From assembly GCA_017506865.1 (NCBI GenBank), contig JAFCMP010000201.1, positions 806,001 through 870,000 on the forward strand: a DNA stretch of 64,000 nt. Reading direction: 5' to 3'. Below the pieces are notes generated by a model. That model was not told the DNA's origin. It did no database searches and saw only the letters and a list, made by a program, of their open reading frames with translations. Of the stretch, positions 5,801 through 64,000 are shown in pieces (positions within the stretch are counted from its first letter, which is position 1; every line of letters begins with the position of its first letter). This DNA is from Tribonema minus (taxonomy: Eukaryota; Sar; Xanthophyceae; Tribonematales; Tribonemataceae). The translations under genes were made by a program, and so were the position numbers.

Positions 5801-8800
5801 TCACTGAGGGCAACCATCTCGACGCCGCGTTTCCCCCTCCCCTGCACCCGCCCCTCCCCCCCCCCCCCCCCCCCTGCCAACCCTAGAGTACCCTGCCTCC
5901 CCCCCTGACGCTGAGTCGCGCAGATGTTGATCGTTGGATGTGCCGTTGTGACGAGATGCGGCGGCGCGCGCTAGAGCTACACAGGCCGCGAATAGCGCCA
6001 CCATGCCCAGCGCACCTGCAAACATCACGCGCACGAGCGCTGCCCCACCCTGCGCACAGCGAGTGAGTGACGTCATGTGAGTCAGCACCGGTAAAGTGTC
6101 GGCGATATCAAGGAATGTGGCATGGCGCGCACTGGAAGTTGCAATCGCTCACAACTTCAAAGCAGGCGCTGCGGGATATAAAAAAGAACACAACGCACAC
6201 GTGCGCTGCACCACCCTGCGCAGCACCCCTCAGAATGAGCGAGTGGTGTCATGCAGTGGGATTTGGCGTGTTGCGGAGCGGATGTCCTGACAATAGACCA
6301 AATAATCTGCGACCAGCACTGTGGGATACCGACAGGAGCATGATGTGTATGAGCGCTGCCCCGCCTTGCGCAGCACTGCTCAGCAAGTGAGCAGAGCGAG
6401 TGATTGACCCTGGGTAACTGGTGACGCTATGGGATATTCCAGAAGCGAAACTTGGCTGTGTATGAGCGGCGCAGCATGGCTCAGCAAGTGAGCGTGTGAT
6501 GATGGGAGTTCACAGCGTGTCGTGGAGAGAATGTCCTGGCAATCGTTCACAAGTTTGTGCGAATCAGGCACTGCGCAATACAACGACCTTGACAACACGA
6601 GCGCTGCCCCACCGTGCACAGCACCACCTGCAGTTGCCAAAACGCAATGCTTGAACGCATCAGCGCTGTCACACCTGTGACAGCATCGATAGTTTGACTT
6701 GCTTGTAATCTAATCAACTCGCCGATACCCAGGGGGTATGATAATCTCATATATACCAACATACAACATATATACTTCTGAAGTATATATATATATATAC
6801 GCATTAGTGCTGCCACAACTGTGACAGCATCAATACTTCAACTTGCCTGTAATCTAATCAGCTCGCCGATACCCAGGGGTATAATCATCTCCCCCAAGGA
6901 CCAGGATAGGACCCTCCCAACAAACACAATTTGTTCAACTTGCCTGTAACATAATCAGCTCGCCGATACCCAGGGGTATGATCATCCCCCAAGGACAGGA
7001 CCCTCCCAACAAACACAATTTGTTAAACTTGCCTGTAATCTAATCAACTCGCCAATACCCAGGGGTATGATCATCTCCCCCAAGGACCCTCCCACCACCA
7101 GCCACGTGCTATTTCTGCCGGACAGATTGATGCCGAGGCTGACAGGCAGGCTCATTGCCAGAGGGTACATGGCAGACCTGTGGAATAATCAAACCAGGGT
7201 GCAGCAATGATGTTGCATGGCGGGTCTGTGGAATTGGCATGCGTGATCTTAGAGTTAGGGTTAGGATGAGGGTCACAGCAGAGCGTGGTTGAGCACAAGG
7301 TGATTGGGCCCTGCCGACACATGGCGGATACATACATACACAGGACCTGCTGAGCACTGATGTGCGTGGCCAGGGGGGGTACAGGGGGACACATGGCGAA
7401 TACATACTTGCACGGGGTGTTACATGACCGATCTGTAAAACGGGCGTACAATACCTGCCAGACCAGAGCGCAACTCAGCACAAGTTGAGGTTGCGGGCTG
7501 CGGAGCCCTCATATGGGTGAACTGCGCAACGACCACCATAGATGTCATAGAGAATGGCTCGCTACGTGCTGCGGGCGTGTGCGCTGTTGAGCACTGTTTC
7601 ACAACGCTCATGTACGTTGAGCAGTGATATTTGTTTTTGCATGGCTTCCTGGTATCAAAGTAGTTGTTATTTCCTCAAAAAAAGCGGGTGATCAACACAC
7701 ACCAAACGCAATTGCCACTCTCTCCGCCCAGCCAAGTTATCATCAATAAACTTGAAGGTGATGCTCTACTGGTACATAACCCACTATTTATCCCCGAGCA
7801 AACTTCAGTACCTTCGTTTCTGTCCTACATTAGTCTGGCACAAGCCTGCGATACATGGCCCTCTGAGCCTGTCAAATCTTAGTTTCATGCACATGGTCCC
7901 ATCAAATCAAGGCCGCCATGGGGCTGTCATTTACTTGTACAGCAAGATGATTTTCAGGAGCATTGCATGCCAGAATGAGGCACTACAACGTGCAATCACA
8001 ATCCAAACGCAGCTGCAGAACAGGTCCCTAACAGCCCATCCGCCTTTGGTATTTTGCACATGACCAACACAGCAAGGCCTCCTTGGGGCTATTGCATACT
8101 TGTGAATACAACAACATGATGGTCAAGAGCATTGTACTTGAAGTATGTCAAAGTGAGGCAGTACTTTAACTCACAAGCACACTCCAAATGCAGCCGCCAA
8201 TCCCATCTCCTCGGACCAGCCGACTTGCCCAAGTATGAGCGCTGCCACAGTCCACACCAATGACCCCGCCAGCAGCCCCTGTAGCAGCACGCTGACGCTG
8301 AACAGTGCTGCCAGGGGTATAGCGGCTACGCGGCCGATAGTGACCTGAAAAACAGGTTACAAGTGGCAGTTGAAGTAGCAGTTGAAGCAAATAACCAGTG
8401 TCCGCCAGCAGCCCCTGCAGCAGCACGCTGACGCTGAACAGTGCTGCCAGGGGTATGGCGGCTATGCGGCCAACAGTGACCTGGGCAACAGAAAGTAGCA
8501 GTTGAGTGAATAACTGACATGTAAGCATGCCAGACAATACTATATGGGGGGGGGGGGGGGGGGGGGGGGGGGCAACAGTGGCCTCGGCAACAGCAAGTAG
8601 CAGTTGAGTGAATAGCCACCATGTAAGCAAGCTGGTCAACAACTGTACTATGAGCTACGAGCAAGCCATTGCATCTGGTTTTACAAAGAGAAGTCTGGCC
8701 GTATCAGCCCCGCTCCAACACAACGGAAATATAGGTTCAGAAGTCTGGCCGTATCAGCCCCGCTCCACCACAACGGAAATATAGGTTCGATACATCAAGT

Positions 8801-11800: not shown

Positions 11801-14800
11801 GGCAGAGGATGGGGGGGTGTTGTTTTGGGGTGCGAACAAGTTCGGGCTGAGATGGGGTCTGAAAGCGTGGGGGTGGCTGTAAGGTAAATTAATACTAAGG
11901 TAAGGCGGGGCCTGATAACCGGGGGTACTGTTGTGGGGTAGAAACAGATTCGAGCTGAGATGGGGCCCAAAAGCGCAGGCAGTCTGGTCTTTGTCCTAAT
12001 GCTGGGTCATACGAGGCAGAAGGTTGAGGGGGGGCGGGGGGGGGGTTGTCGACAAGGGGTGCACTCAGTGTCTACTCTGACGGATGCATCGAGGTCCCAT
12101 CGTTGCAGTGCATCCAATTTTTAGAAGTGATGCTGCTGTCACATTCGGTAGTGCTGTGTTGCAAATATTAATCAATTCAAAGGACGCCTCTGTGCGCGGA
12201 ACTGGAGATGCCAGCGCGATCCTGCTCGGCAGCTGTCATGTTAAGGCAGTTTCTACATGCCAAATAATGCATAATCAGCCACACAATGGTTCATGAACTG
12301 GCGCTGGTGACAATGGCGCGCAGCCAAACAGAGCGTCGCAGGCGCAGTCACAAAACTCGCGCCGCTCGCTCGCTGCGCGGTGGCTGAGCTTCAATACAAG
12401 TACTTCAAATAGTGCATCAGAGAGTGTCGTCCCCCCACAACATGTACTTCTTCAAGTAGCAATATGTGCATAAGCGGGTGTGGTTGTGCCTGCAGATAAG
12501 TAGTATTTTCTCAAGCAGGTAGTGTATTTGGTGACAGGCGGCGCACCTGTCCATGAACTTCAACAAGTGACGCACCTGTCCATGAACTTCAACAATGGCG
12601 GCATTCCCAGGAGCGTCCACGGTGCCTGCCGCACAGCCCTGCATTGTGCAAATGACCACGACGCAAGTTTTAATCGCTGGAAAAGGAGGCTGGCCTTGCA
12701 TATGGTTGACATTACAGTAGGCGGTTTGGGGTTTGCCGGCCTGACAGGCAGGCAGATTTGGGCGCAGCAGAATACCCAGTACATCGCGATCAATGATACA
12801 CCGAGTGCTATGTTCTATTGCGGCGTGCAAGCCTGACAAGCACATGTGACTCACTCTGTGAGCGCAGCTGCAGATCCAGTGCACCGCATTCAATAGCACA
12901 CATACAGCTATGTTCAGTCGCATACTAACATCACGGCATGCATATCGTTGTTGCTATGCATGATGCGACAGCCGCGTCAAGAGTCACCCCCTGATGCACG
13001 AATATACGTACCATCTTGCAACGTACCTAACAATGTGCGCTTTCATAATGGATTTGACAGCGCACAGCGCCACCACCGTGCCAGAGGTGGACAACCAACC
13101 AGCCAAGCAGACACAACTCACGAGAGCATGTGTTGCTACAGAACGAAGTGAACTAGGAATAAGATGCGAACCCTGTCTGAGATGGCACGTCAGTGCTCAC
13201 TGAGGACCCAACCTCAACATGTGCTGAGCTCTGCTCCATCAGGATTGATAGCCAGCATATTGACGTCTCTAAGACTTAGGTGCGAATCACACCATCATGT
13301 CTGGTCAGTACATCCCTACACTCGAATACCGTAAAGGAGCTGTAGCGGTGACACTGGCAAGTGCCCAGTAAAAGCGCAGGGTTACGGTGGCTTCACTCAA
13401 GCCCACACATCATCAAATTCAACCTGGATTTCAGACACAGGCTCAGTGCTCTAACCTCAAGAGTGCAAAGCGGTAGTCACCCACTCAACATTACCAAGCA
13501 TGCATTGTGTGTGGTGCTGTAGGCTGCACGCTTACCAGGAGAGAAATAACTGACGCCATGACACAGAAGCGCAGGACACGAGCACGGCTACTCCACTCAA
13601 GCGCACACATCATTACACCTAACCTTAATATCAAAGACAGGCTCAGTGCTCTAAACGCAAGCGTGCATAGCGGCAGTCACCCACTCAATATATACAAGCA
13701 TATCCGTTGTGTGTGGTGGTGCAACACACACACTCACCAGGAAGAAAGTCACTGACGCCATGACATAGAAGCCCGGGGACACAAGAGCTGCTACTCCACT
13801 CAAGCCCATCATCACAGCAGCAACGCCTGCAATGACATCGCGTGGCAACGCCCAGTTTGTATGTGGAGCATTGCTCAGCAACAAAACTTTCAGGCTTGTA
13901 GCGCGGGAAAGCGGCACGGAAATTATTCACATGTCAGGCTAAGGCTTGCAGCATGACAGCAGCCACCAACAAGAGGAGTTAAGAAGATACATAGCAAGGC
14001 AGTGCTCAAATGACGTGGAGACCGCCTAGCCTGTCATCATGTCCAATAGCTCTGCATGTCACACACTGCATTCAGAACCAAGGCAACAAGATTGCAAATG
14101 CTGCTGTGCTGCCCAGAAACACATAGGCCTGAGCAGTCCATTAAGTGCCACTGTCAGCAATGAAAACAAAGAGCGGAAGCAGACTTTTGAAACATGGAGC
14201 TCAGACAACAATAGGGAGCTACGCACGAAACCTGTTTTCTGTAAGTTGCACGCCAGTTGTGCCCTGCTAAATGGGCACGTGCTTCGGTCTGAGCGAACCC
14301 CCTAGCCACATGCGTCGGTCTGACTGAGTAAGCGAGTGATTGTTGCAGAAAGACAAGTGTCACGACTGACTGCTAAGTGCCGAATCAGGGCCATGCGCCG
14401 ACGAAAACACAGCACAGCCAGCCCACACAATGCTGTGACGCCACTGAGCTCAGCACAGGGGCGCACAGCGCTGGCCACAAAGGTCTTCTCGTTCCAGTTA
14501 GGGTTAGGGTTAGCTTACCCGAAAGCTTTGGAGCGCTGCTTCATGACTACACAGCGCAAGCCGCCAGCAACAACAAATGCGTGCAATAACAATTAGAGAG
14601 AGTTTGCCTAGGGCTACTGTGATTGTGAATGTGTACAATAACAGTCAGAGAGAGTTTGCCTATGGCTACTTGCTCACCAATCACAATGAAGCGCAGTCCT
14701 CCCACGCATTGCGCGCTGTGGCCCGATGCCAGTGACCCCAGCAGATACCCCACGCCACGCGCCGCAAACACCTGACCAAAGCGTGTCTCCGGCTGCTCGA

Positions 14801-16653
14801 GCGTCCGCGCAAAGTAGGTGATGGACGGGCCTGCGTATGATCAAGTATCCAAGTAGGGTTTGGTTTAGGGTTAGGTTAGGTCCGAAGCGTGTCTCCGGCT
14901 GCCCAAGTGTTCGCGCAAAGTAGGTGATGGACGGGCCTGCGTATGACCGAGTATTCAATTAGGGTTTCGGTTAGGGTTTGGTTAGGTCTGAAGCGCGTCT
15001 CCGGCTGCCCGAGCGTCCGCGCAAAGTAGGTGATAGAGGGGCCTGCGTAGGATAAAGTTTAGGGTACTATAGGGTTAGGATTAGGGCTAGGCTGAGAAAT
15101 TAGGATTGGGACGAGGGGTAAGGATTGGATTCGGGTTAGGACTGAAGCGTGTCTCCGGCTGCTCGAGCGTCCGTGCAAAGTAGGTGATAGAGGGGCCTGC
15201 GCATGATCGAGTTTAGGGTACTATAAAATCAGGGTTCGGGCTAGGATTAGGGATTAGGGTTACAATGAGTGTTGGCGTTACGACAAGGGTCAGGTGAAAG
15301 AGTATCTTCGGCTGCGCTGACAGCTGCTGAAGGAAGGTGATGCACGGGCCTGTGTATGACCATTTTTGAAATTAGCCTTCTGGTAGCAAGATGGGGGGTC
15401 AGAGTAAGGGTTAGGTTAGGACAGAAGCGCGCTGTAGCGTCTGCGCAAAAGTGTATGATGGAGCATTTAATTAGGGTTTGAGACAGGGTTAGGTGAGGTG
15501 CGAAACGTGTCTCCGGCTGCTCGAGCGACCGCGCAATGTAGGTGATAGAGGGGCCTGCGTATAGCAAGTGTGATATTAGAGTTTGAAGGTAAGAGGTAGG
15601 GTCCAAACGAGGGGTTGTGGTTAGGGTCAGGACCAAAAGCTGGTTTCCGGCTGCTGTAGAGTTTGTGCAATGTGGGTGATGGACGAGACTGCATGGAGGA
15701 GAGTGCCAATCAACTGGTGCCGCGGGTGGCAGCGGGCACCTGACAAACATCCTGCAAGCCACCCTGGTCTAGGGGACTCCGGTGCGCCTGGAACGAATGT
15801 TTGAAAAAACGAAACTAACATGTCAACCGGGGTATCTATGTACACAAAGCGTGGCAGCTCTGCTGAGCACTGACATGCCCTGAGCACTGCCCACTCCAGT
15901 AGCCACATCTGGCGAGGGGGGGGGGGGTCAGTGACTTTTCGATACATGATAGACAATGTTGAGGTCATAGTGTGTCAGCAGTGCACGTACTGACGACAGC
16001 CCGGCCTGCTCTGGCCCTGTATTTGACGTTTGAATGCATTCCAGATGCGTGCTGATGTGAGGATGGGCGTAGCACCGGATACGTACAACAGTCTGACACT
16101 AGGTTCAGCAATGGACTGACGCACAGTGGCAACAGCACCACAAGGGCAATGCAATGCCAACAGATAGCGTCTTGATTATATTTGGTGGGATTGTGTTGAA
16201 GTTGGACTAAACAATGCTCGAGGCCAGAAGCGTTGCTAGAGGTATCTTGAGCTCATGAGCTCATGACACATTGAAATTATTTCTTCTTGCACCAGCATAA
16301 CTGTTGCCTGACCGCTCTGGTGAGAGATTTGTATCTGCAACATTATGATCCGCAAAGTGTACATGGGCGCAGTAGCTCGACTTTTGCAATGTGATAGTCA
16401 ACAGTGTCACAGAACCTGGGAAAACTTCGACCGCAGCTTCATGTTCTCGATTTTGATAGTGGTGCGACAAAAGAGGAACGCAGCTTGGCAGGCAACTTGG
16501 CAGCAAACTTGAAGCAGCAAGCACAGAATGTTTACCTAAAGAGGATATGAATAGTCCCAGCACCAGAAATGCGCCGAAGAGCGGGACGCTGAGTGCAGCC
16601 CTCACTCGCAGCGGCTGCTGCGTCTCCAGCTGCTCCTTGCTGTGCACCTCCAT
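5801..16653 (-). CDS. Major facilitator superfamily transporter, MFSD4/fucose-permease-like
   Basis: Ten exons join in phase: 16653-16536, 14830-14678, 13826-13738, 12638-12576, 11503-11248, 10562-10462, 9266-9084, 8344-8175, 7177-7033 and 6049-5801, giving about 508 residues. Helix 1 ends GLFISSLG and is followed by GPSITYFARTLEQPETRFG and ARGVGYLLGSLASG. Later come GCAAGTVDAPGN, VGPWMQALHFSFSLGALLSP, an acidic cytoplasmic loop between helices 6 and 7, GLEVGFGGWLPVVMTLQG, GRVAAIPLAALFS and GGSLGEMIIPLGIG. This 6+6 layout with D..N and G.WMQALHFSFGLGA-type motifs is that of the MFSD4/NaGLT1/FucP group of sugar-type symporters; the substrate is not readable. The ninth exon ends in a GC donor (CAG|GCAAGT). 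The last exon crosses a C19 run (5856-5874 on plus). One base more or less there would give a tail ending ALSDELEYEM with stop at 5779-5781, which looks more natural. Head-to-head with the glycosylase gene. Confidence 0.85.
5856..5874. repeat. Homopolymer C run inside the last transporter exon
   Basis: Nineteen C on plus (poly-G, read as poly-Gly, on the coding strand), within a wider G/C-rich stretch. Its length sets the frame of the C-terminal tail, so it is a likely place for a sequencing or slippage indel. Confidence 0.85.
6160..6640 (-). repeat. Echo array upstream of the last transporter exon
   Basis: Copies of the acceptor edge, coding for a CAQGGAAL-like stretch (plus strand GAGCGCTGCCCCACCCTGCG), recur near 6205-6235, 6350-6390, 6455-6490 and 6598-6630. 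The true exon edge is at 6049. The spacer contains further shared words such as TCAGCAAGTGAGC. Confidence 0.6.
6720..7032 (-). repeat. Echo array downstream of transporter exon 9
   Basis: Three extra copies of the exon end and its GC donor. On plus the words CTTGCCTGTAATCTAATCA and CGCCGATACCCAGGGG recur near 6700, 6845 and 6940. The copies encode MIIPLGIGELIRLQ followed by GCAAGT, like the true edge at 7033. Similarity falls with distance. The most distal copy reads AAGCAAGTC instead of AGGCAAGTT. Confidence 0.75.
8345..8660 (-). repeat. Echo copies upstream of transporter exon 8
   Basis: 8405-8485 repeats the acceptor and first 75 or so bases of exon 8 almost exactly (VTVGRIAAIPLAALFSVSV), then breaks off in GCGGACACTGG. 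A second, shorter copy of the acceptor side (GTTGCCGAGGCCACTGTTG) follows at about 8570-8620 next to a G27 run. Confidence 0.75.
8940..9083 (-). repeat. Echo array downstream of transporter exon 7
   Basis: The exon end TTCTGGCTTGGG with donor GTAAGTAGGTAT is repeated about five more times at roughly 25-35 bp spacing (near 9060, 9032, 9003, 8975 and 8950). On plus it reads as repeated ACTTACCCCAAGCCAG words. Several copies retain a plausible GT donor. Confidence 0.75.
11553..11990 (-). repeat. Repeat array upstream of transporter exon 5
   Basis: Four copies of a TTCGGGCTGAGATGGGG-type word (near 11567, 11650, 11842 and 11950), with repeats of the pre-acceptor TTTCTGCGCGGTGTAGGCAG near 11777. 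They lie just outside the acceptor at 11504. Confidence 0.6.
13340..13737 (-). repeat. Echo array downstream of transporter exon 3
   Basis: Two extra units of roughly 190 bp share CTCCACTCAAGC, GACGCCATGACA and the following intron text AGACAGGCTCAGTGCTCTAA with the true exon end at 13738. The unit nearer the exon keeps a TTACCAGG-type donor; the distal one is more degraded. Confidence 0.7.
14498..14513. repeat. Interstitial TTAGGG tract
   Basis: A short perfect TTAGGG tract in a transporter intron, one of many in the window. Others are at 18436-18470, 19228-19260, 28707-28735, 31513-31533, 31748-31765, 31796-31834, 33331-33392 and 44571-44612. Confidence 0.85.
14860..15705 (-). repeat. Telomere-repeat-linked echo array upstream of transporter exon 2
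   Basis: Seven extra copies of the exon 2 start, GPSITYFARTLEQPETRF with its CGCAG acceptor, near 14887-14945, 14993-15053, 15144-15206, 15297-15352, 15424-15465, 15503-15562 and 15634-15700. The true exon begins at 14830. Most copies are cut right after the ETRF codons and run straight into CCTAACCCTAA-type sequence on the minus strand. Confidence 0.85.
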
Positions 16654-17448
16654 GGCTCTAGGTGTCTCTGCGCGCAAGCAAAGAGCATAAAAAAAAGCGC
16701 GTCACAGGTTTGAAGTGCAAGTTTTGATCAAAGGTGTGTACTTTGGCACGCACCAGCTGGCGCGAGCAGCCGCTGTGAGAAAGGAACGGCTTACTGGTTT
16801 GTCTCAAGCCACCACGAGCAGAAGCAAGCCAGCGACAACGCCCAACGCACATCGGTTTACGCAGCACGAGAGCTCTACAAGTGAGTCAGCACTGTGCTCC
16901 TGTAGGTTGTACGCCGCGCCACTGTATGGGGTGCAGCTTGTGTCGGCGCAAAAATTCAGCATCGTCAACATCGTCTATGATTAAATTAGAACTGACTCGG
17001 GGCCCTAAGTGCTGGCGTCAAGATAAGAAAAACATGCACCCGTGTGCAAACCTCGCGATCAATTGGTTTGACACACACCTGTCGGGAGACTATGTAAATA
17101 TTGTGATTCAGTGCTTTTCTTTCATTGACGAAATTGACGCTTAGAGCTTGCAAGATGGCTCAACTGCAGGTACCAGGCATCAGTGTTTCACTCAGCTCGC
17201 CAGTAAGGTTTTTCATGGGGGGCAATTTTCAGGCAGTGTCATCGAAGCTTTTCAAGTTTCCCACCAACTAGCTTGTGACGAGTGCATCAGCAGTCATGGC
17301 ACATTAGCTCTATGCTGCCTTTATTGGGCAATGGTCAATGTCGGCAGTCTTTTCCTGGGATGTGTATCGCTTGTTGGCATGCTCACTGATAGTCCGCATG
17401 TACGCTTTGCACTTGTTGCTTGCTTCCTGTTTTGGTTGCGGCAGCACC
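16654..17448. promoter_or_regulatory. Shared upstream region of two divergent genes
   Basis: About 0.8 kb between the start codons of the transporter (minus) and the glycosylase (plus), so both promoters should lie here. I see no clear TATA box or repeated operator. It contains AT-richer stretches and no convincing reading frame. Confidence 0.4.
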
Positions 17449-25787: not shown

Positions 25788-25979
25788 CTCTACCAGAGAG
25801 TGATGGTTGAAACCATATGTCTGCTTGCGATCAAGTGCTGCAAGTTTCTTGCTTCTGTGCTCTGCGTATTGCCTTGCAGCTTTTTCAGACAGTGCCATGG
25901 TGTTCATGCACATGTCTTGTTGACTCTTACGGATTTCATCCTGGTGGCAATCAACCACAATGGAATCGGCTGCTTCAAC
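25788..25979 (-). CDS. Unidentified internal exon
   Basis: A 64-codon phase-0 exon bounded by an ACAAG acceptor and a GAG|GTATGC donor. It reads VEAADSIVVDCHQDEIRKS, then EKAARQYAEHRSKKLAALDR and a Gly-Phe-Asn-His-His stretch. It is charged and helical. The family is not recognised. Its partner exons are uncertain; the membrane exon upstream appears to end in a stop at 26107. Confidence 0.35.
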
Positions 25980-26106
25980 CTTGTATCAGCATGTCGAGAA
26001 CTTTCCAATTGCTGCCGACACGGTAGCGGCAGTACATTCACAGTGGGACGAAGTGAGATAATCGACACTGTGGCAATTTGAATGATGAGGCTGCTAACCC
26101 AGGACA

Positions 26107-38800: not shown

Positions 38801-41800
38801 GCTGCGACCCTTCAAAAGGCGCTCACGGACAGCGGCCTGGGATCCAGTGTCATCGGCGGCGGACTCTCCGATGAGCTGCTGCAGGCTACCTTCAGCATTG
38901 GCCTCAAGGGTGTGGCCCCTGAGAAGGTGTGTTTGGTAAACTCTGGTCTCACCTAATGGATCACAGTATATGTTGCTATAACATGGTGGATTTTGAGTGC
39001 CACCTTCAGCATTGGCCTCAAGGACGTTGCCCCTGGGAAGGTGCGTTTGTTTTCTGCTCAATCAATTACAACTTTGGCTTAGTGGGCATCGTATAGCAGT
39101 CATTGTGGCCAGTTATCGTGGCACTCTACAAAGGTTCTTGCTGTTGTCATGTACCTTGCACATGTTGCTATATAACTTAATGTTGGGTTTAGGGGCCACC
39201 TTCAGCATTGGCCTCAAGGGTGTCGCCCCTGAGAAGGTGCGTCTGGCTTCGTTAATGCGACCATCAGATACTGTTGTACTGCAAAGCAGTCATTCGTCCA
39301 TCACTTGTACATGTTGCCACAACTTGATGGGGTTTGGAGGGCCACCTTCAGCATTGGCCTCAAGGGCGTTGCACCTGAAAAGGTGCGTTTGTTTCTGCCC
39401 AATCAACTACAATTCCGGCTTTCGTGGGGCATCGTGAGCATGAGTCACCTAGGGGGGGTGGGGGTAGGGTTAGGGTTAGGTCCATTCATTGCAGTCCACA
39501 ACGGCAATGTTCTCTTGTCATGTACGTTTTGCATGTTGCAATAACTTGCTGAGATTTTGAGTGCCCCCTTTCAACCTTGGCCTCAAGGGTGTCGCTCCTG
39601 AATGGGTGTGTTTATTAAACACTGGTCTCACCTAACGGATCATAATTCCGGCTCTGTGGGTATCGTACAGCAGTTATCTCGTCCACTCGTGGTACTCTAC
39701 AATATCTGGTGCAGTGGTCATGTACCTTGCCCACCTCACCTGTGATCATTCACAGTAACGCACCATCAGATTTGTCTTCCCTTGTGCATGTATACCGCCC
39801 AAAATTGATTCTCGTCGCCATCTGGCGGCGGTTGCAGGTGGTGCAGGCACGTTTAGTTATGCTCCACCATGTAGCTGATGCAGACAAGTGCTTGAAGTCT
39901 GACCTGCTGTAAAAAAACTTCCTTGTCTTTATCCAGTGCTGGTTCTCTGCTAAAGAGCTTGATCATGTGCCGTTGTCTGCTGAAGCGCTTGAACTTTTTA
40001 TCATCAGCTTGCTTGTCTTCATTCACATGGTGGTCGTCCGCTAATCAACTTGTTTTGTACTTGTTCATTGTGGTGGGTTCAGTTTTCATTGACTCAGACG
40101 CTGCTCCTGACTCTGCTGGTATATGTGTGTTTTGTCAGGTGTCTGATGTGGAGACGCTGATCCTGGACACACTCAAGAAGTGCGCGGAGGAGGGGTTTGA
40201 GGTTAGTGAACAACTTTATCTTGCTAGTGCAAATACTACTTGTTTTTTTTGCATCCACTAGTAAAACAGGTCGTGAAACACGCTGTCAAAGCTCCATGTA
40301 TATGGCGTGCTTTCAATATTCACACATGTACGGGGTCACTGTGCAGCTCATGCCGCAAACATCAACTGCAAAACCGCCGCCTTTTTTCAACTGGCAAGGT
40401 ACCGCGCATCTGTCAACCCACTCACTCGCGTTGTGACTCTGACTCCGACTCTGACCCGTGCAGGACACCGCCATCGCAGCCTCGCTCAATTCCGCCGAGT
40501 TTGAGCTTCGCGAGTTCAACACTGGCTCCTTCCCGCGTGGCCTCTCTCTCATGCTCGGAGCTGTTGCCAACTGGGTCTATGACCGCAGCCCGACCTCCGA
40601 ACTTCACTTTGAGGCACCGCTTGCGGAACTCAAGGCGGATATCGCGAACGGCGAGCCCGTGTTCCAGAACCTGGTCAAGAAGCTGCTTGTGGAGAATGGC
40701 CACAGGTACATCACATCATGCGTACTGTGCAGTATGCATGTATTGAGAACTTGACATAGCCCGGAGCATTTGATTATCGGGAAAGGCACTCTTGTGTTAG
40801 GATTCAGTGTTCCTTGTAGCTGCTTGTAGAGGCAGGGCGTGCCTGTGTTCCAGAACCTGGTTAAGAAGCTGCATGAGAATGGCCACAGGTATGTACACGA
40901 ACAACATACATTCATAGACGATAACATGCCCTGATCGATCTGATTCTTGGAAAAGGCACTTTCCTGTTAACATTTTATGTTCTTTGGAGCTGCCTGTAGA
41001 TCCACCCAAGGCATCAACATACCCCTGCCAGACATTGCTCAGGTGCCGTTGAGTTTGTTTGGCTCCTTTGAAGAAGCATTTGTCGCAAAAGTGTGGCACA
41101 TTGAGCGCGCCGAGGTGCAAATATCAGTGACGGTTGAGATTTGCCAGCGCTTACATACAATGCTGGGCATGCCAGTGCTGAGCAATGCCACTTGTGCACA
41201 ATTGGCCACGCAAGCCAGTGCATCACCACGAAGTAGAAGTAATTGAATTGCCATGAAGTGAAATGATGGCAATGCGGAAAGTCGCTCCATTTGCACATGT
41301 ATGCAAGCAGCAGCTGGCAAAGCAGATTCTGCGTAGTGTTAGGGTATAAACTAGGCTCCAACCCCTGACCCCACCCGTAGTCATGCACACTCAACTGCAT
41401 GTGGAAGCATGATTTGATTGCACGATTACCATAGTACGGATGTCCATGACCACAGGTGCACCACAGCATTGATGCTTCTGAGATCAGGTTAGCCGTTTTG
41501 TCAGGGTTAGAGTTGGGGTTACCCGGAGCAACTTCTCTCCGTCTTGTTCCTGGGGACGCACTTCAACTTCACATGTCAACTTCCCGCTTGTGCTCTTTGC
41601 ATCGGACGCCTGTCACTTCTGAGACCTCATCAATGGAGCTCACTGACAGAAAAGTTTCTGCCAGCAGCCAATCTAACGTGCAGATGACAGACATTTGCTG
41701 CCGTGAACTCGTAAGCGTGTGCTATAGCTGTCAAGGCCACACCTTGGGACCTTTTTTTTGTTCACAGATAGGAAAATCCCTGCCGGCAGTCAATCAGATG

Positions 41801-44800
41801 TGCAGATTGTGAGCACGTGCAGCTTTGTAAAGACTCTCCAAAACATATGCTGTTACTTTTATGCGCACTTTTGTCGCAGGGTGACTGTTGAGATGAAGCC
41901 TGACACCAAGTACGAGGCGGAGACGGAGGAGAGTGAAAGGTCACGCCTCGAAAAGGTCAAGGCCTCCATGACGCAGCAGGTATGTTTTCATGAATTTCAT
42001 GTAGGGACAGTGAATGGGTGCGCCCCGAGAAGGTCAACGCATCCATGTGATAATCTCTTCGAAGTGACAATTACTTGAAGTATAATGATGGACAAGGGAG
42101 AGTGAAAGTCACCCCTCAAAAAGGTCAAGGCCTCCATGACGCAGCCGGTGCGTTCATGAGCATGAATAATCAGCATGATGTGAGTGAACTCGCCTTGAGA
42201 AGAAGGTCAATGCCTGAAAAATATTATGATGATGACTTGTATTGATGGTGACGAGGAGACTTGACGTGCTTTGAGACTGTCAAGGCATTCTGAATATGAT
42301 GTTCATGAGGAGAGTGCAAGATCACGTCTTGAGAAGATCAGGGCTCTGTTATACAGCCGGTTCTTCCATGCATATTAATGGGATACTAGAAATGGCCATG
42401 ACATCCTGTGTACGTTCGGCAGGTGTGCACTACACTGGGCTCAATCACGGCAGCTCATGTTTCGCAACGCAGCTGACAGTGCTCTAGCGCCATCGTGACA
42501 AAGGGCCATCAGCATGCTCGTTCAAGCGGTTTAACATCAAAGCATGGTGGCTGACTGTTGCGTGACTGTGAGCTCATTGGCACTTGTGCACACCAGTGCA
42601 GCCGCGCACAGCATCGCTATTATCGTGCTGCCAACTGATTGTCGCCAGGGCTGCACTCTGTCAAACTGGCGCTGTTCACAAGATTCCCACCTCAGCACCC
42701 CTCAAATGCTGTCGCACACACGCATGTGATTACCACATGATCCCGTGAACCTTCGTAAAGAGTAGCAGTAATCGCTCGCTAGCTTCACTCTGTGACAATG
42801 TGCAATCATCGGCATCCGCCTGTGCTACATAGTCCTCAGGACCTCGATGGCATGGTCACTGCCACCTGTTCCACCGTGTCCTCAGGACGCTGCTGAAAGG
42901 AGCACTGCCACCTGGGCTTTCATCCTTGGGACATTGCTGAAGTCATTACTGCCACCTGTTTGTATCTTGCCCTCAGGACATTGATGAGGTTATCGCTGCG
43001 ACTGAGAAGTTGAAGGCGGCACAGGCAGCGGAGGACGCACCAGAGGCAAAGGCCACCATCCCTGCGCTCAGCATTGGGGATCTGGACAGGAACATCAAGA
43101 AGATCCCGATCGCCGTGGATGAGGTGCGATGTGCATACTTGAAGTGCAGTTGAAAGCTGGCTGCAGTTGAAGTACTTGATTACAGTTGAAGTAGTTGCGG
43201 AGGACGCTCCAGAGGCAAAGGCCTCCATTCCTGCGCTCAGCATCGGTGATCTGGACAGGAACATCAAGAAGATCCCCATTGCCGTGGATGAGGTGTGATG
43301 GTGCATGCTTGCAGTGCTTGCCTGCAGTTGAAGTAGTTGGCTGCGAGCGGAGCTTGCCTGCAGTTGAAGTACTTGCTGACAGTTGAAGTACTTGCCTGCA
43401 GTTGAATACTTGGATGTAGTGCGCCCCACATGGTGCTGTGTGTGTTAGCATGCCTCTTGAATCATCGGAACTCAGTATGTGGCGCTCTCTATTCGTGAGG
43501 AGCGTACATTAGTGTCACTACTGGGATGGCCTCGCCTGCAATATGCACCGGACGAAAAGCTATACTCTACTGCTGACAAAGTGAAAAGCATGGTCATCAG
43601 CACTGCAACTCTGGCAATGCACATCGACCATGAGTCTGGAATAAGCTATGAGCTGCTACATGTTCACGATGGTGAAGCCACTACATTGTGTGCAAGTTGC
43701 TCGTGTTTCCGGCCAGGGCAGATTGCCTAACACAACGCCTTTGCCATCCAGCACCTGCTATCATGATCAATGATATTGCCGCTTGCTTCATGCCGCAGGT
43801 GCCTGATAAATCGCGCCGTCGCGTGCTTGCCTACTCTGTTCTAGACAAGCTCGACCTTCCTTGAGTACAATTATGATACTCAGCTTGTGTGTGACAACTG
43901 CGCCGTAGCGTGCTTGCCTACTCTGCTACGAAGCCGCCCACGACCCTTTTTTTGCACGACGGCACTTCTAATGTTCAGGCGTGCGTGATTGCCGCTTGAT
44001 GCGAGTACAACACCGCTACCATGCTTCTGAGTCTGCCGTCAATCCTCCCCATGTCTCAGCAATGTTATGAACTTAGTACTCATGGATTTCTTCGATAATG
44101 TGCTTCTGCGTATGTAGGTATCGGGCGTGAAGGTGGTAACACACGCCATTCCCTCATCGGGCATCCTCTACGCTGACGTCGGCGTGGACATCACAGGTGA
44201 TTAAGACTTGCAAAATAAGTTATTGTGAGTCGTTGAGTGAGTACTATCAAGTTCTTGAAGTCGGCAAAATTAGCCTTTCCGAGTTATTTAGCCTTTTCGG
44301 GAGCGAAGGGGAAGAGAAGGGGAGCATGCTGTATGCTACTGGAAACGAACAAAGAAGATTTAGTGGTGAAATTGGTGTTTCGGGCGATTGTGTGGCACCG
44401 CGCTGCCGCATCTGTTGTGTAGTCATGTGCCTGCGCTGTTTGTGTTAGTCAGGAATCGCAGTACAGAATGCGACATTGACAAAATGCGAAGATAGAGCAG
44501 ATGTCGACCGGAGGAAGGAACGTGTTCCGTAAGCCGCGTGACGTATTCTAATTGCATCATGCTGAACCTCAGGGCTAGGGCTAGGGTTATAGTTAGGGTT
44601 AAGGTTAGGGTCCTGATGTCCACATCATCCATCTGGTTCTCGCTATTGACTGCACAGACCGTCCAGCACATGGAGTGCACCTGGGCAGGCTGGGTTTAGG
44701 ATTAGGCTAGGCTAGGGTTAGGGTTAGGGGTAAGCTGGGTCGTACCTGCCAGCATTTGTCATCTTGCCAGATCTCAATGACATGTATTCAAGATCCTATC

Positions 44801-47800
44801 TCTCCTGTGACCAACTTATGGGAATTTGGTTTTCCTTTGCCTGCACTACCCTTACCCTGCCCTCCGCAGTTTCAATGGATCAATAATTATCGCTCTTCAG
44901 TCATCGTTGAGCATCATCGCTGCAACATCTCACTATACCTTTTCTGGTGCACTGCAGGCGTCCCCCTGTCCGAGTACCCCCTCCTGGGACTGTTCTCCAG
45001 AATGCTCCTGGAGACCGGCGCCGGTTCCATGGACCGCGTGGAGCTGACGCGTCACATTGGCACTCAGACTGGCGGTGTGTACTGCACATCGCTGACTGGG
45101 ACCAAGATGGGTGGTGGTGGCGTCATTGCGTCTTCCGACGATGTGGTTGGTTACCTGTTCCTCAGGTCAGCTGACGTGGTGCCTACTCATCACTTGTGAC
45201 TCACTGGGGTGGTATGATGGCATCAATAGCTCTTACGAAGCAGAGCAGTTGATTGTTGTTTGGTTGCTCACTGGCACCCGGCGGCAGCAGTACATAGCCT
45301 CATGACGCGACCGGCTACTTGTTGCTCAGGTCAGCTGATTTGGCTGAAATACATCAGACTGGGGTCATGTGTTGATTGATCGGCAATGACGCCATTGCGT
45401 CGACCAACAACGTGGGGGACTTCTTGGTTCTCAAGTCAGCTGATGGCATCATCGCTTTTGGCCCTGATCCTGCTGCTCATGACACTTGACACATACTTCT
45501 ATTTCTATGAAATGCACAATGGAAGTATGAGCAGCTTTGAGTCGGACTGGTGATATGTGCTGTTGCTGACTGGCACCAAGCTGGGTATGCAGCGGTGGCG
45601 ACATTGCTCAGCTTTGCGTCGCCTAATGAAGTGAGGTGCAAGTGGCAGGTATAGTTTAGGCTTACCCTGTGCCGTCGGTGGCTGTCCTCCATCATCTGTT
45701 AAGTGCAATATGACTGCACCCCGCTTGACTCACTCGGTGACTCACTCAATCACTCATGATTTGCTGGTTGCCACTCCTCGCTGTTTAATCCGCTGCCAGG
45801 GGCAAGGCTGTCTCTGCCAAGACCCCAGAGCTGCTGGACATTGTGCGTACAGTTGTCACCGAAGCTCGCCTGGACTCGCAGCAGCGCGCGATTGAGATCT
45901 TGAAGGAGACCAAGGCGAGGTACGCATGGAAGTGGTGTGTGCGTGTCACTCGTGGCACTGTTTTATGTTTCATGTGTGTTGAGTGGTACGTATGGACTTG
46001 TATTTATAAAGGCCCAAGGGAGGCCGGGTTGCCTATGCAATCGAAAAGCTTGCGTCAACGCAGCAGCCTAGTCCCTGACGGCACCGCGCACACAACATTG
46101 TGATTTGAAGTTGAAGTTGACATTGAAGTTAGTGTTGCGGCGCATTCCTCTGCGCTACTTTGCAGAGCGCCCCTGGTTTCTTTGGAGTACGCCGCGACTC
46201 TTGAGGCACCTGAGCAACGCTTCCAAGCTCAGAAAGCTTCAGCAATTGTGGTACAGAATTGGGGTTTCCATCACATCCTGCCGACCAGTGAACCCTTGCT
46301 AGTTACACAGTCTCGAACACATCTGCTAGCGTAGGTTACTCAGTCGTCGATGACGTGATTATTTTGGTCACAGGCTCGATGCCAGCATCGTCAGAGGGCC
46401 CATGGTTTCTGCATGGTACATCGCGATTTGCGAGACACTTCAGCATTGCCTCCACGCCCACAGTCTGTCACACACATGCTTATGTAGGTTACTAACCAAG
46501 CACAAAGCCTCAAACACACACATGCTTAATAGCAGGTCACCAATGACTTCGTCGTTATTCACATGTTATCGTGTTCACAGGCTTGATGCCAGCATCGTTG
46601 GATCCGGCCACTCGTATGCCTCCATGCGCATCGAATCGCGCTACACATTGGAGGGCTACCTCAACGAGATCTCGGGGGGCATCTCGTCAGTTGAAACTGT
46701 CAAGTCAGTGCTCAAGATGGCGGAGGACGACTGGCCGGCGCTGCTTGCGCGTCTCGAGAAGATCCGCGCGTCAATCGTCACGCGCAACAACCTGCTGATC
46801 AACCTCACCGGTGAGCAAATGGCGATGTGTGGCAGTGCTGTGTGAATTAGGCGAGGTGGCATCGCTCTAAAGTCACCTGCTTCGTATAACATGAGTAGAA
46901 ATTTGCTCGTGAATTATGTGCATGCTCGTGGATTTTTCAACATCCGCCCAATCGTTGAAATGGGCACAGCAGTAGCGCTCTGACAAGTAGTTGTAACTCT
47001 GCTCAAAGGACCTGGTTGTGCGCATTTGTCACTCTCAATCTTGTGGTGCCGTACCGTGCTGAAGATGAGGAACGACTGGCACTCATTCATTAGTGTGATG
47101 GCTTGAAAACCTTGCTGCAGCGACTTTGATGTTGCCTGCTGCATCATACATGCAGTTCTGCTCGCCTGGAGTTCACACAGTGGGGGGGGGGGGGGGGGGG
47201 GGGGGGGGTCAGGCAAAAGTTGCCCCCTGTCATGTGCGATCCTTTACAATTGCAAATATGCATCCGCCAATCATTGCCCATCTGCTTCTCTATCAAAGCC
47301 TGTAACACTTGGTAACACTGTGGCACATGTCATGTTACTTGCAGGTGACCAGGAGGTACTGGATGCAGCCGCCCCTGCCATCAGCAACTTCATCAACTCC
47401 ATCCCTGGTGAGAAATTGTGCTCAAGTAGCTTGACCCCCATGTTAGCTCCGCTCTGTGACCAGTTCATTTCGGCGGAGGCAGCTGCTTGTTCACGTTGTG
47501 AAAGTAGCTGCTGAGCAATGGTTCATGTACGCATCATGCACTTGTGCGCGCTTGTCTAACCTCAGATGCCCATAGACGCTGCGGGTGTACTTCAAGTACA
47601 TGAAGTAACAGTGCTTCCGCCATCCGCTGAATACAGCATGTGCGGCAACTATACGCGCGCTATGATGTAACGTGTTGTCCAGGACATCAGGCTATGCTTG
47701 GCACGCCTAATTGCCACAAACACTGACTTGTGTGCACAGGTGCTGGCGAGGGAGTGGTCTCACACTCTAACTGGGCGGCTGAGGCCAACCTCATCCCTGC

Positions 47801-50744
47801 TAGGAACGAGGGCTTCGCCGTGCAGACACAGGCAAGTGCACAGCACTGCCATCAATGTTGACACAACATTGAAACCACCGTTACGCGTAGCGCTGTCATG
47901 TGGAGCACAGGACAAACACGCTTTGAAGCATTGGCTGAGAGTTTTTTGGGTGCGCATGCTCTGCAGCTCAATGCGTGATCTGCAGTGCACAGCACCACAG
48001 TCTTTGATGACATTATGTGAAATCACTGTCACGTGCCGTGCAGCGCAGGCAAGTGGCAGGCAAGTGCACAGCGCAACAGTATTTGATAACATGCTGTGAA
48101 TTAACTGTTACATATTGTGCAGACGCAGGCCAGTGCACAGCGCAACAGTCATTGCTGACATGCTGTGAAATCACTGCTGTTGCTTGGAGTGCAGGACGAA
48201 CACCCACTGAAGCACTTGATTAGTGTCTTCTGGGTTCGCAAGCTTAAACAGCAAATTTCAACCTGCAGTGCATTACGCGTATATATATGAGTTATGAGCA
48301 GGGCGACGGGGTTGTGCTAGTTTACTTGTAATGTACTCACTGTGTACTCACAGTGTACTATGTTGGATGCAGTACAGCAACAGTGTGTACACAACATCAC
48401 ACAATGCAGTACAGCAACACTGTGTACACAACACTACACAATAAAGGATCTGCAGATGCACTCTGTCCTGATCTCCTTTCTTACCTTCATTCAACCTTTC
48501 TCTTCGCTGCAGGTCAATTACGTGGGCAAGGGTGGACGCCTGTTCCAGCCTGGGGAGGTTGTGCCTGGCAGCTTCCAGGTGGTTTCGAGGTGAGGCTTTC
48601 TGTTGCAGCAATTAAAATGCTTGAGACTATTGTTCCCCTTCCATTGTACTGACATCTGGCTGCTGTTGTTGACCATCCGAGCTGGCCCACTTCACAGATG
48701 CGGCAGGCAGTGCTCGTTAACGAATCATCAGAACTGTCAGATATTTCACACGTGCTTATACTTCAGTATATGTCATGCAAAGTGATGTGATTTCATGCCG
48801 CAAGAACCACCACGAACGCATTGCACTGGCAGCAGCCTGTAGACTCTGCTGCTGCTGCTGCTGCTGCCGCTGCAGCACATACCTCAAAGTAGATGTGCGA
48901 AGTTCACCTCCGTGATCCTGGCGGCATGCCCCCTTGACATCATGACCATTGCGCTCAGTGCTTGACAGTTTGTTGCGCAAACCGCGTGCAGCACCATGAC
49001 CTTATTGACCACACCTCCCCTGCCGCCATCTGCTGATGCAGGTATCTGCGCACCGGGTACCTCTGGGACAACGTGCGCGTGATGGGGGGCGCATACGGGG
49101 GGTTCTGCAACTTCAACCCCATGACCGGCCTCTTCTCCTTCCTGTCGTACCGCGACCCGAACCTGGCCAAGACGCTGGACATTTACGACGGCTGCGCTGA
49201 CTACCTGACATCACTGCACCTGCCAGCAGGTGATTTGCGCTTTTGAACTGCGCTCTTGAACTTCAGCAATTCTGTTAGCGTCATGAATGCTGGCAGCGAC
49301 ACTATATAAAGTTTGTGTGAAGTTCTACCTGGCATCGCTGCACCTGCCAGCAGGTGAGGTCGCGCTTTTGAACTACAGTATGTCTGTTAGTGCATATGCA
49401 TGCTGGCAGTGACAGAGTAGAAAGTTTTTGTCAACTTCTTCAGAAAGTATACAACAGTGGTTTTGTGGTGTATCCGCTGGTGCTTCCGCACTTGTGCCAC
49501 AAGCTACAGGTGCTGACTGTACACCTGAGATCTCTCACTGCAGCAACTTTGTAGCACAGAATGCTAAACACACACACAGAGACGCCTCAGGGCAGGTGCA
49601 AAAGCAACTTGAGCAATGTTTCTTCTATGTAGTCAGATTCTTCCTGATGAGCTAGGCACGCAGAAAAATCTCAGCATAAAATTATACCGTACGCTCAACT
49701 GCAGCTGTGAGATGCCTTTGACGTCCTCTCTTGTTGCTACAGCACTTGAACCTCTCTCATGTGAACCCCACATCCAGAGACACGTTAGCAAGCAACGCTC
49801 AGGCACCTTCGCGCAGCCCTCAGTGCAGCCTCCATTGACACTCTATATGCGTTTCCGCTGCTCTGCCTCTGTCAGATGAGCTGCAGATGAGCGTGATTGG
49901 TGCTGTTGGCGACATGGACTCGCCCCAGAGCGCTGACCAAAAGGGGTTCATGAGCCTCAAGCGGCACCTCATTGGGGTGAGTGAAACTTCAATCTTGTTC
50001 ACACTTCAACTCTGTCAACCTTATTTGTTGATGCTTTTTTAAAAGAATAAGGGATCTCTGCAGGTGCCTGCACGTGAGGTACAACATTGGCCTTTCCTGC
50101 ATGGCGCTTGTGAACGCGGTTTGCGCGTGTGAGAGCCTGCTTGTGTGTAGTGCGTGTGTCAAATTGTTGGGAAGAGCTTGCAACAGCGATTTGGCTCAAG
50201 TGCTTAGTTATAGTCTTGTTAACCATCAACCTCAAGGGCTGCTAGGCATTCAACCGCCACTGATGGAGCACGTGCCCTCATACATGGAGTAGAAACTCAA
50301 CAACGAGATTCAGGCGACTGAAGTCTTTGATTTGTGGAATTTCTCCATTTGTCGCCGTTTCGCTTCTGGACTAATGCTTTGGATGGTCATTATTTCTGTG
50401 ATGGCTTCCTGGTCATTGCAGCGAATGGCTTCAGGGCCTGCTATTGCACAGTGGGCTCTGTATATTTGTGTTCATACGCATACATGCAGGTGGCGACCCC
50501 ACTCTGTTGCACCTGCCTGATCCTTTGCCTCTTTCTTTACTGCATTCAGATGAGCGATGAGGACAGGCAGCGCATCCGCGACGAGGTCCTGGCAACTTCA
50601 ACTGATGACTTCAAGGCCTTTGGCGACCGCCTCAAGGCCCTCAACAGCAGCGCGCGCAGCGCGGTCGTGGGCTCAAAGGCGGCCCTGGAGGCAGCAAACC
50701 AGGGCCGTGAGGGCGATGATGCGTTCCATGTGCACGACATCTAG
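26891..50744 (+). CDS. PREP: Presequence protease (PreP), M16C metallopeptidase of mitochondria and chloroplasts
   Basis: Twenty-four exons all join in phase, about 1066 residues, the usual length for plant PreP. Exons: 26891-27094, 30230-30385, 31850-31975, 32646-32723, 33961-34044, 34775-34894, 35943-36119, 37192-37251, 38177-38340, 38800-38926, 40139-40201, 40464-40705, 41880-41979, 42977-43123, 44118-44196, 44958-45165, 45800-45919, 46581-46810, 47345-47407, 47740-47831, 48513-48589, 49042-49229, 49876-49976, 50550-50744. The first exon encodes 68 residues rich in Arg and without Asp or Glu, a targeting peptide. The inverted zinc motif HILEH is at 31901-31915, the distal Glu in [30 protein letters not shown] near the end holds the conserved C-half Arg and Tyr. 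It degrades cleaved targeting peptides and other short peptides inside organelles. Exon 20 (47831) has a GC donor, CAG|GCAAGT. Most introns hold echo arrays. The exact initiator Met is inferred. Confidence 0.95.
29220..30229 (+). repeat. Echo array upstream of PreP exon 2
   Basis: About eight to nine copies, spaced roughly 110-150 bp, of the acceptor plus exon start. Words are GTCAGCGCGCGGTCATC and CCCCAGCTACGAGCTTCT (near 29225, 29340, 29460, 29590, 29755, 29865, 29990 and 30110; true exon 30230). The two nearest copies also keep GAGGACTTTAT(C/G)AAGGA. The segment 29808-29930 repeats 29530-29650 almost exactly. Confidence 0.85.
30386..31030 (+). repeat. Echo array downstream of PreP exon 2
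   Basis: Five further copies of the exon end, coding [15 protein letters not shown], near 30455-30508, 30604-30652, 30690-30755, 30856-30903 and 30990-31030. The first two end AACAAG|GTATG like the true donor at 30385; later ones lose the reading frame and the donor. Confidence 0.85.
31513..31849 (+). repeat. Echo and CCCTAA array upstream of PreP exon 3
   Basis: The acceptor and first codons ([29 protein letters not shown]) recur near 31595, 31720 and 31771 before the true exon at 31850. Between copies lie perfect CCCTAA tracts (31513-31533, 31568-31585, 31748-31765, 31796-31834). The copies break into CCCTAA right after the codons for TFR/H T. Confidence 0.9.
31976..32310 (+). repeat. Echo array downstream of PreP exon 3
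   Basis: Four degraded copies of the exon end (AGCAGAAAGTTCCCCGTGAA, then GGAGCCTTTCGTCGA), near 32029, 32069-32105, 32150-32215 and 32250-32305. The last two keep AAGGTGCG, the donor sequence of the true exon end. Confidence 0.8.
32724..32890 (+). repeat. Minisatellite starting at the donor of PreP exon 4
   Basis: Five units of about 34-38 bp of the form GTATGTATGTATACGGTGGGCCA begin with the true donor GTATGTACG. The array continues to GTGGGCCTGCC, a word that recurs near 33135. Confidence 0.75.
33331..33392. repeat. Longest interstitial TTAGGG array
   Basis: About ten TTAGGG units in a row with one slipped unit, inside the PreP intron between 32723 and 33961. Confidence 0.92.
33640..34260 (+). 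repeat. Echo arrays on both sides of PreP exon 5
   Basis: Upstream of the exon (33961-34044), GACTTCTACAACCTGATCAA recurs at 33647 and 33818, with a truncated copy at 33799, each after CAG or inside a copied edge. Downstream, CCCCATGGTCATGCAGCAAG with AGGTGAGC recurs at about 34182 and CCCCATGGTGATGCAGCAAG at 34234. Confidence 0.85.
35330..35942 (+). repeat. Echo array upstream of PreP exon 7
   Basis: Six to seven copies of the acceptor plus ALFPDNTYG codons (AGGCTCTGTTCCCAGACAAC-like), near 35350, 35528, 35605, 35681, 35758 and 35848, at about 75-170 bp spacing. The true exon starts at 35943. Intron text ACTACTTGACATGCGTATGA repeats with them. Confidence 0.85.
36170..36365 (+). repeat. Echo copies after PreP exon 7
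   Basis: GCCTGGAGCTGCTCGATGAG with GTGAGCTGA at about 36208-36237 and CTCGGAGCTGCTCGATGAAG with TGCGCG at about 36331 copy the exon end at 36119. Confidence 0.75.
38690..39610 (+). repeat. Echo arrays around PreP exon 10
   Basis: Upstream, GAGCAGCGCTGCGACCCTTC at 38699 copies the acceptor edge. Downstream, GCCACCTTCAGCATTGGCCT and a GAGAAGGTGCGT-type donor recur near 39000, 39197 and 39341 with a poorer copy at about 39566 (true end 38926). Three of them could encode [14 protein letters not shown] intact. Confidence 0.9.
41980..42370 (+). repeat. Echo array downstream of PreP exon 13
   Basis: Copies of the [17 protein letters not shown] coding edge near 42010-42045, 42095-42150, 42185-42215 and 42300-42365, progressively degraded. 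The copy at about 42120 reads GGTCAAGGCCTCCATGACGC, identical to the exon. Confidence 0.75.
42820..43300 (+). repeat. Echo arrays around PreP exon 14
   Basis: Upstream, CCTCAGGAC with GATGG/GCTGA recurs at about 42832, 42879 and 42927 with CACTGCCACCTG spacer before the true acceptor at 42976. Downstream, 43197-43296 repeats the last 100 bp of the exon ([20 protein letters not shown]) almost perfectly, followed by GTGTGATGGTGCAT; the true donor is followed by GTGCGATGTGCAT. Confidence 0.9.
47182..47208. repeat. Poly-G homopolymer
   Basis: Twenty-seven G in a PreP intron. A run of the same length occurs at 8546-8572. Confidence 0.85.
48030..48160 (+). repeat. Echo copies of the GC donor after PreP exon 20
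   Basis: GCCGTGCAGCGCAGGCAAGT at about 48035 and GTGCAGACGCAGGCCAGTGC at about 48117 copy the exon end GTGCAGACACAG|GCAAGTGC (47831). The GC of the donor is kept in both; a second GCAGGCAAGTGCACAGC follows the first. Confidence 0.75.
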
Positions 50745-56757: not shown

Positions 56758-56817
56758 GTCACATGCGTCCGCAAGAGCTGCCAGACTGTCAGTGCCAGTG
56801 GATGTCCAAAGGCGAAC

Positions 56818-63736: not shown

Positions 63737-64000
63737 TTCCTTTGCCCATTCAAGGGCGGCAGCGTACGTCTACCAGGCCTCCATTACACTACACCTCCAG
63801 TCATTTACGAGGTTCCGTGAGCGCACTTCGTCGGCACTCATGTCCAGCTGGCGTTGGCAGAGTGCGTTGCAGTGCAGCCACTTGCAGATATATCTGAGAG
63901 AATGCGTTGGCTGTAGGTGGCTCGGCCAAGAATCACGGCGGGCTCAGCTGTAGCAATGATCAGGCAATCGTTGGTATTTACCCGTGCCGCACCATTGTGG

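Follow-up and report, generated by a model that had tools for sequence, protein, structure and literature searches.

Why do introns at this locus carry imperfect copies of the edges of the exons beside them? An earlier note on the window, by which we mean the whole 64,000-nucleotide stretch analyzed here (contig 201, bases 806001-870000; the genome comprises 158 Mb in 554 contigs), described such copies, splice site included, in three genes and ascribed them to repeated tandem duplication across splice junctions. We call these copies echoes. The questions are whether they are real, how widely they occur, in what state they are found, and which process could have produced them.

Exon-edge copies in three genes of the window

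The genome contained 92 exon-level matches to chlorophyll-binding protein genes; therefore, it belongs to a photosynthetic eukaryote, probably an alga. According to the predicted splice sites, its introns are spliceosomal, with GT/AG borders. Self-BLAST of the window gave 90 direct repeats at an offset of less than 1 kb and no inverted repeat at that range, and one dinucleotide shuffle gave none. The GC content was 0.47 to 0.56 in the echo regions of the window (about 51% GC).

The largest gene in question encodes a presequence protease (PreP; 30257-50744, plus strand), of which 19 exons were placed by phmmer matches to PDB 2fge (2fge_A) and by splice-site reading. The start of exon 1 is approximate, and the stretches at 36.1-38.2, 43.1-45.0 and 46.8-48.5 kb each probably conceal one unplaced exon, so that 3 of the 18 PreP introns probably span such an exon. 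At a score of at least 18, 11 of the 18 introns had at least one exon-edge echo, with donor edges echoed in 9 and acceptor edges in 3. Introns 1 and 9, each with four donor echoes, and intron 3, with three acceptor echoes, were strong cases; intron 1 had three acceptor echoes as well. In intron 1 (30386-31849), donor-edge echoes started at 30469, 30613, 30723 and 30865, and acceptor-edge echoes at 31597, 31723 and 31775. Intron 2 (31976-32645) held donor-edge echoes starting at 32074, 32156 and 32257. In intron 3, the acceptor-edge echoes started at 33646, 33799 and 33819, within 33646-33960 and ahead of the exon at 33961. In intron 5 (35352-35942), the acceptor edge was echoed at 35761 with a score of 19, and three further echoes fell under the threshold of 18. 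The donor-edge echoes of intron 9 (38927-40138) started at 39002, 39198, 39344 and 39570. Further donor-edge echoes were found at 36203-36227 (exon ending at 36119), at 40852-40888 (exon ending at 40705), and at 42021-42147 with starts at 42021 and 42108 (exon ending at 41979). Two more lay in abutting copies: in the copy at 43197-43395 of 43028-43198, the echo was at 43253 and belonged to the exon that ends at 43123, and the copy at 49325-49439 of 49201-49326 carried one of the exon ending at 49229. All of these are on the plus strand.

An array with periods of 123 and 276 runs from upstream into PreP exon 1 (29530-30303, plus strand), with copies of the probable acceptor edge of this exon near 30020 and 30143. 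Within its far less similar 276-bp repeat, the 134-bp segments 29530-29663 and 29806-29939 were 99.3% identical, which suggests recent local conversion or recopying.

The other two genes also carried echoes. In the Fpg DNA glycosylase gene (exon at about 17940-18074, plus strand; Pfam PF01149), self-BLAST and translation showed that the donor edge near 18070, within 18013-18111, is copied at 18125-18223. The transporter-like gene (minus strand) was named by eye, and no Pfam match was found for it at an E value of 0.01. By the same two methods, its acceptor edge at 8266-8373 has an upstream copy at 8402-8505, and its coding stretch at 14673-14837 is accompanied by an upstream array of acceptor-edge copies (14779-15585, with a period of 106 and more; 14673-15585 together with the coding stretch). 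Exon-edge copies that include the splice site were therefore present in all three genes, as described before.

To the right of PreP, the window contains a signal-peptidase-like gene, a PPR gene and a 5S rRNA gene (51513-51631, minus strand). Duplicate coverage in these 13 kb (50745-64000) was 0.5% despite the genes, compared with 36% in the PreP region by a separate measure.

Sidedness and extent in a wider sample

A sample of 198 kb outside the window was assembled from exons found with HSP70, Cpn60/TCP1 and tRNA-synthetase profiles. From 164 profile matches, 126 in or near the fetched stretches were entered and 125 were placed; 6 of the echo type were set aside, leaving 119 exons. The spacing and profile-gap filter passed 66 pairs of neighboring exons, of which 9 could not be joined, giving 57 introns in 25 stretches. 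With the 18 introns of PreP, the set comprised 75 introns in 26 gene stretches. Kinesin loci served only in a protein-level table of 258 profile matches.

Outside the window, at a score of at least 20, the donor probe matched downstream in 29 of 115 cases and the acceptor probe upstream in 19 of 118. At the same score, reverse-complement probes gave 0/115 and 0/118, wrong-side searches 0/118 and 1/115, mid-exon probes 1/91 and 0/93, and probes against other genes 0/115 and 0/118. When a z of at least 4 was used instead, the counts were 33/115 for donors and 25/118 for acceptors, compared with 0 to 4 in each of the eight controls. At the protein level, 8 of the 9 echo-type rows obeyed the same side rule (five donor copies downstream and three acceptor copies upstream), and the ninth was a comparison of two echoes of one exon. 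These results confirmed that the exon-edge echoes are real and upheld the side rule, by which copies of a donor edge are found downstream of it and copies of an acceptor edge upstream of it.

The sidedness also bears on the idea that the echoes are left over from the birth of the introns, when an AGGT-containing exon segment was tandemly duplicated (the Rogers model; PMC4974935). The predicted donor and acceptor junctions are AG|GT-like, as this model would have it. However, each far boundary should then hold a single copy, whereas here there were often several, scattered through the intron, and the wrong-side matches amounted to just 0/118 and 1/115. The layout in question, in which the end of the upstream exon is repeated once at the 3' end of the intron and the start of the downstream exon once at its 5' end, was not found in these introns, and we give this origin hardly any credence. 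Introners or intron transposons would place the same sequence in introns of unrelated genes. Exon edges were therefore also compared with the introns of other genes, and a 20% random sample gave 0/1216 matches; in an all-against-all comparison of 38 stretches, most of the matches within these stretches were between paralogues, and three short ones were not. One study reportedly describes intronic elements of Amoebophrya.

Echoes had been expected throughout the genome, and they were indeed found in the sampled genes beyond the window; echoes lay on ten contigs. The claim that most introns carry them was borne out in PreP but not overall, as 26 of the 75 introns had at least one echo (donor edges in 21, acceptor edges in 10, both in 5). 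Mean coverage by duplicates varied widely: it was 0.22 for the PreP introns and 0.00 for eight introns from two related HSP70 genes, whereas a single Cpn60/TCP1 intron reached 0.76.

Donor and acceptor edges differed. Donor edges were echoed in 28% of introns, compared with 14.7% at nearby intron positions, an excess of about 1.9-fold (bootstrap by gene, difference of 0.018 to 0.217). Acceptor edges were echoed in 13%, compared with 11.7% at nearby positions, without a clear excess. Intron interiors also contain duplicates, with an excess at donor edges only, and the process is not particular to exon edges. Introns with one kind of echo favored donors over acceptors by 16 to 5 in this modest sample of 75 (bootstrap difference of 0.000 to 0.247), and there were 57 donor-edge copies against 17 acceptor-edge copies. 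More donor echoes would be expected if a spare donor downstream does no harm, the true donor having been transcribed before it, and fewer acceptor echoes if a spare acceptor upstream is encountered before the true one and is purged. Should the imbalance hold in a larger count, splice-site choice would become readable from it at genome scale.

State of the copies and the process behind them

We compared 74 echoes with their exons by codon position. The difference rates at positions 1, 2 and 3 were 0.094, 0.081 and 0.162. A ratio of 1:1:2 would be expected between a copy that is free to change and an exon in which only synonymous sites are. Since the observed rates are close to this ratio, the echoes decay near-neutrally. 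Over all genes, the third position held 177/367 of the differences (0.48, with a range of 0.48 to 0.53 across settings). The share was 0.60 to 0.70 over three settings in PreP alone (79/132, 55/79 with a shorter probe, and 69/108) and 0.42 to 0.44 in the other genes (98/235, 66/151 and 88/206). On the assumption that one exon change was counted against several copies, we put the PreP lean down to this effect; the PreP counts are not independent because a single exon change shows against every copy. Gene conversion between exon and echo was considered for a pattern that looked mostly synonymous by eye and was set aside, as the full count found it partly in PreP and not in the other genes. Similarity did not fall with distance from the exon, contrary to what had been described (Spearman coefficient of -0.05 for 26 PreP echoes).

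Among donor echoes that reach the junction, 39 of 46 retained GT (six ending short of the junction were excluded from this count), and 18 of 19 acceptor echoes retained AG, about what the rate at positions 1 and 2 predicts under drift. The distance was a multiple of 3 for 16 of the 46 donor echoes, and all 16 belonged to the 39 with GT. Two of these 39 were readable through, both in PreP intron 4 (34045-34774, plus strand; echo starts at 34164 and 34227). The earlier note had suggested that remaining splice sites could allow alternative splicing into peptide repeats. If the echoes were alternative donors or acceptors, or peptide-repeat exons under selection, the high third-position share in PreP (0.60, or 0.70 with the shorter probe), the mostly retained GT and AG and the 16/39 distances divisible by 3 would all be in keeping. 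The share over all genes, the drift-like retention, the 16/46 distances overall, the two open cases and the nonindependence of the PreP counts argue against such a role, which we hold to be very improbable. The codon-position, frame and GT/AG tests all looked like drift overall, and a function in alternative splicing was accordingly rejected. As judged from their sequence, the copies overall appear to behave as neutral debris.

The profile of similarity across the junction was then set against simulated introns. In 20-base blocks, the 46 donor echoes had identities of 0.81 and 0.89 in the exon part and 0.67, 0.57 and 0.49 in the intron part, the last being close to the null value of 0.46. Random tandem duplication with exon constraint, simulated under five settings with 250 introns, gave 0.73-0.77 and 0.85-0.87, followed by 0.70-0.76, 0.55-0.65 and 0.48-0.60. 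In every one of the five settings, similarity was lower than observed in the exon blocks and higher than observed in the first intron block. The simulation roughly reproduces the profile, and a tandem-duplication mechanism therefore suffices in outline. Special breakpoints at the junction were considered and dropped, because the fast drop in similarity beyond the junction, which had seemed odd, was nearly matched by the simulated introns. The donor-edge excess goes beyond what the tandem-duplication model fully explains; the simulated ratio was 0.99 to 1.21, and about 1.75 in one of four smaller runs (80 introns).

Copy number was a further point of departure. An echoed edge had 1 to 9 copies with a median of 2, and 16 of 33 edges had a single one, so that the two to ten copies reported before held for the multiple cases, up to 9, but not for the edges with one copy. 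The observed number per echoed donor edge was about 2.5, compared with 1.3 in the simulation. Ordinary minisatellite dynamics alone (unequal exchange or slippage, with break repair playing no part) would account for arrays in which an edge has as many as 9 copies, for more copies than a one-step simulation yields and for the overlaps at several short clean units. However, the 16 single-copy edges require an initial duplication, and clean units of at least 25 bp show little overlap. We consider this explanation unlikely. The overlaps in question come from 24 clean abutting units. The nine of at least 25 bp, which are near-perfect, had overlaps of 0, 0, 0, 0, 0, 0, 2, 0 and 1 bp, and the 15 of 15 to 24 bp had overlaps of 0 to 12 bp, above zero in 11, or at least 5 bp in five if counted strictly. 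Microhomology is therefore not absent.

For many close copies, tandem duplication is not plain. We listed 31 close pairs, of which 26 had a spacer of at least 20 nt; by a rough z score, 12 of these 26 spacers matched neither flank at a z of at least 4, and 14 did. Templated insertion may therefore contribute. It would copy a nearby piece of 50 to 130 bp together with filler, by a polymerase-theta-type process or replication template switching, instead of a true tandem duplication. Besides the 12 spacers unlike both flanks, near-identical copies that do not abut, such as 29530-29663 and 29806-29939 with their 142-bp spacer, speak for it, though this spacer resembles the sequence after the second copy. 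The 14 spacers that match a flank, the nine clean abutting units of at least 25 bp and the pairs that abut at 43028/43197 and 49201/49325, or nearly so at 40650, speak against it. As the general source of the echoes, local templated insertion seems to us possible but rather doubtful.

The reading that we favor, with good though not full confidence, is recurrent small local duplication in noncoding DNA, tolerated in introns and across single junctions, with the copies decaying and the introns lengthening. Small local duplications, mostly tandem and with units of roughly 50 to 200 bp, would recur in noncoding DNA, with the fill-in repair of staggered DNA breaks as their probable source. Selection would remove any unit lying wholly within an exon. 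In an intron or across one junction, units would be tolerated, since the donor that comes first or the acceptor that comes last continues to join the exons correctly. The spare exon edge would then decay near-neutrally, and later duplications would build arrays and lengthen the intron; the outer splice sites would be those in use. Tandem duplication across splice junctions, as originally proposed, thus agrees with the side rule, the near-neutral decay, the simulated profile and the trend with intron length described below, but fits poorly with the 12 of 26 odd spacers.

Intron length, known systems and telomere-like repeats

The duplicated fraction increased with intron length (Spearman coefficient of 0.58 over the 75 introns and 0.50 without PreP), from 1% in 9 introns of less than 300 bp to 30% in 10 introns of at least 1,200 bp. 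Detectable duplicates covered 19.7% of intron bases. The nonduplicated length also rose with intron length, from 238 to 1,192; this extra sequence in long introns may consist of older copies or something else. Two pairs of similar HSP70 genes were compared for insertions and deletions of at least 12 bp. In the pair C179:220892-225142 and C90:846108-850262, which is 97.4% identical over aligned bases and represents either alleles or a recent duplicate, 2 of 3 such differences were tandem copies. In the pair that is 85.8% alike (C522), 0 of 11 were. Intron lengthening is often credited to transposons or left unexplained. With exon edges as slowly changing references inside introns, duplication rate, unit size and splice tolerance would become readable from a single genome.

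The pattern itself is not new, since exon stuttering on chicken dot chromosomes matches it (PMC12954441). According to the available part of that report, it affects 190 of 5,572 dot introns (3.4%), is seen in birds and, as data not shown, in gerbils, and comes with intron length polymorphism within chickens. In both systems, the introns hold imperfect local direct repeats longer than microsatellites, and the lateral part of an exon is copied with its donor or acceptor into the adjacent intron while the exon stays intact. The copied source lies within 1 base of the exon border in more than 90% of chicken cases; for the 74 copies here, the figures were 74% within 1 base and 86% within 5. The median exon part copied is 36 bp in chicken and 50.5 bp here, and the median number of copies is 4 and 2, respectively. 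The chicken cases lie on GC-rich dot chromosomes, whereas those described here occur at about 51% GC on ten contigs and in 26 of 75 introns; in the available part of the report, GC-rich small chromosomes are the setting in birds and not one of the three main features. The echoes thus show, in sequence, the same pattern as chicken exon stuttering, and they are apparently more frequent, although the rates are not strictly comparable because the detection methods differ. Among the matches listed from the open-licence literature, we found no report of this pattern in an alga or a protist. What is new here is its presence in a distant, photosynthetic lineage of ordinary GC. If the chicken pattern occurs in a second, distant lineage, stuttering would not require GC-rich microchromosomes. 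Tentatively, and with less confidence than we place in the local process, stuttering could be a way in which introns generally grow, arising independently in an alga and in birds and wherever break repair often leaves small duplications, with the surviving echoes recording how splicing is decided.

Other systems, each judged from the available part of its report, share single features with the present one. In the intron gain of the potato RdRp gene (PMC4974935), the duplicate likewise spans one intron-exon boundary with its splice signals, but a single event made a new intron, whereas the process here lengthens introns that already exist and gives no reason to infer a new one. Novel Drosophila introns, formed by tandem duplication or sliding (PMC2891723), also involve duplicated coding sequence with a splice motif; their positions change, unlike here, where there was no sign of this. 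The chlorarachniophyte Amorphochlora (PMC12730881) is an alga with many long introns, like the organism studied here, and what is reported there concerns intron gain and size, not exon-edge copies. Small tandem duplications are made by CST-guided Pol alpha-primase at induced breaks in mouse and human cells, with less microhomology in the wild type than in theta-mediated duplications (PMC8355091). The near-zero overlap in the nine units of at least 25 bp resembles these NHEJ/CST fill-in duplications, which concern induced breaks and not introns as here.

Runs of TTAGGG/CCCTAA of at least 14 nt were a further feature of this DNA. There were 25 in 262 kb (13 in the window and 12 in the 198 kb elsewhere), and nine permuted hexamers gave no such run in the same 262 kb. 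Interstitial telomeric repeats have been described as break-repair scars; work by Schiml and by Vaughn and Bennetzen also forms part of the background. With telomere-like matches masked, the mean duplicate coverage was 0.354 in 13 bins of 2 kb with TTAGGG and 0.148 in 98 bins without (P = 1.2e-4), and 12 of 23 TTAGGG loci lay within 50 nt of local duplicates, compared with 8.2 expected. The position of the runs in duplicate-rich stretches fits break-repair scars, but both features avoid exons, so the link is no more than suggestive. In the window, the runs were located at 14497-14513, 18436-18453, 19228-19248, 28716-28735, 31513-31833, 33330-33392, 39465-39480 and 44713-44729. Seven of the 13 fell in PreP introns 1 and 3 (31513-33392), and five of them were probably multiplied by local duplication. 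The window also contained two uninterrupted runs of 27 G, at 8546-8572 and 47182-47208.
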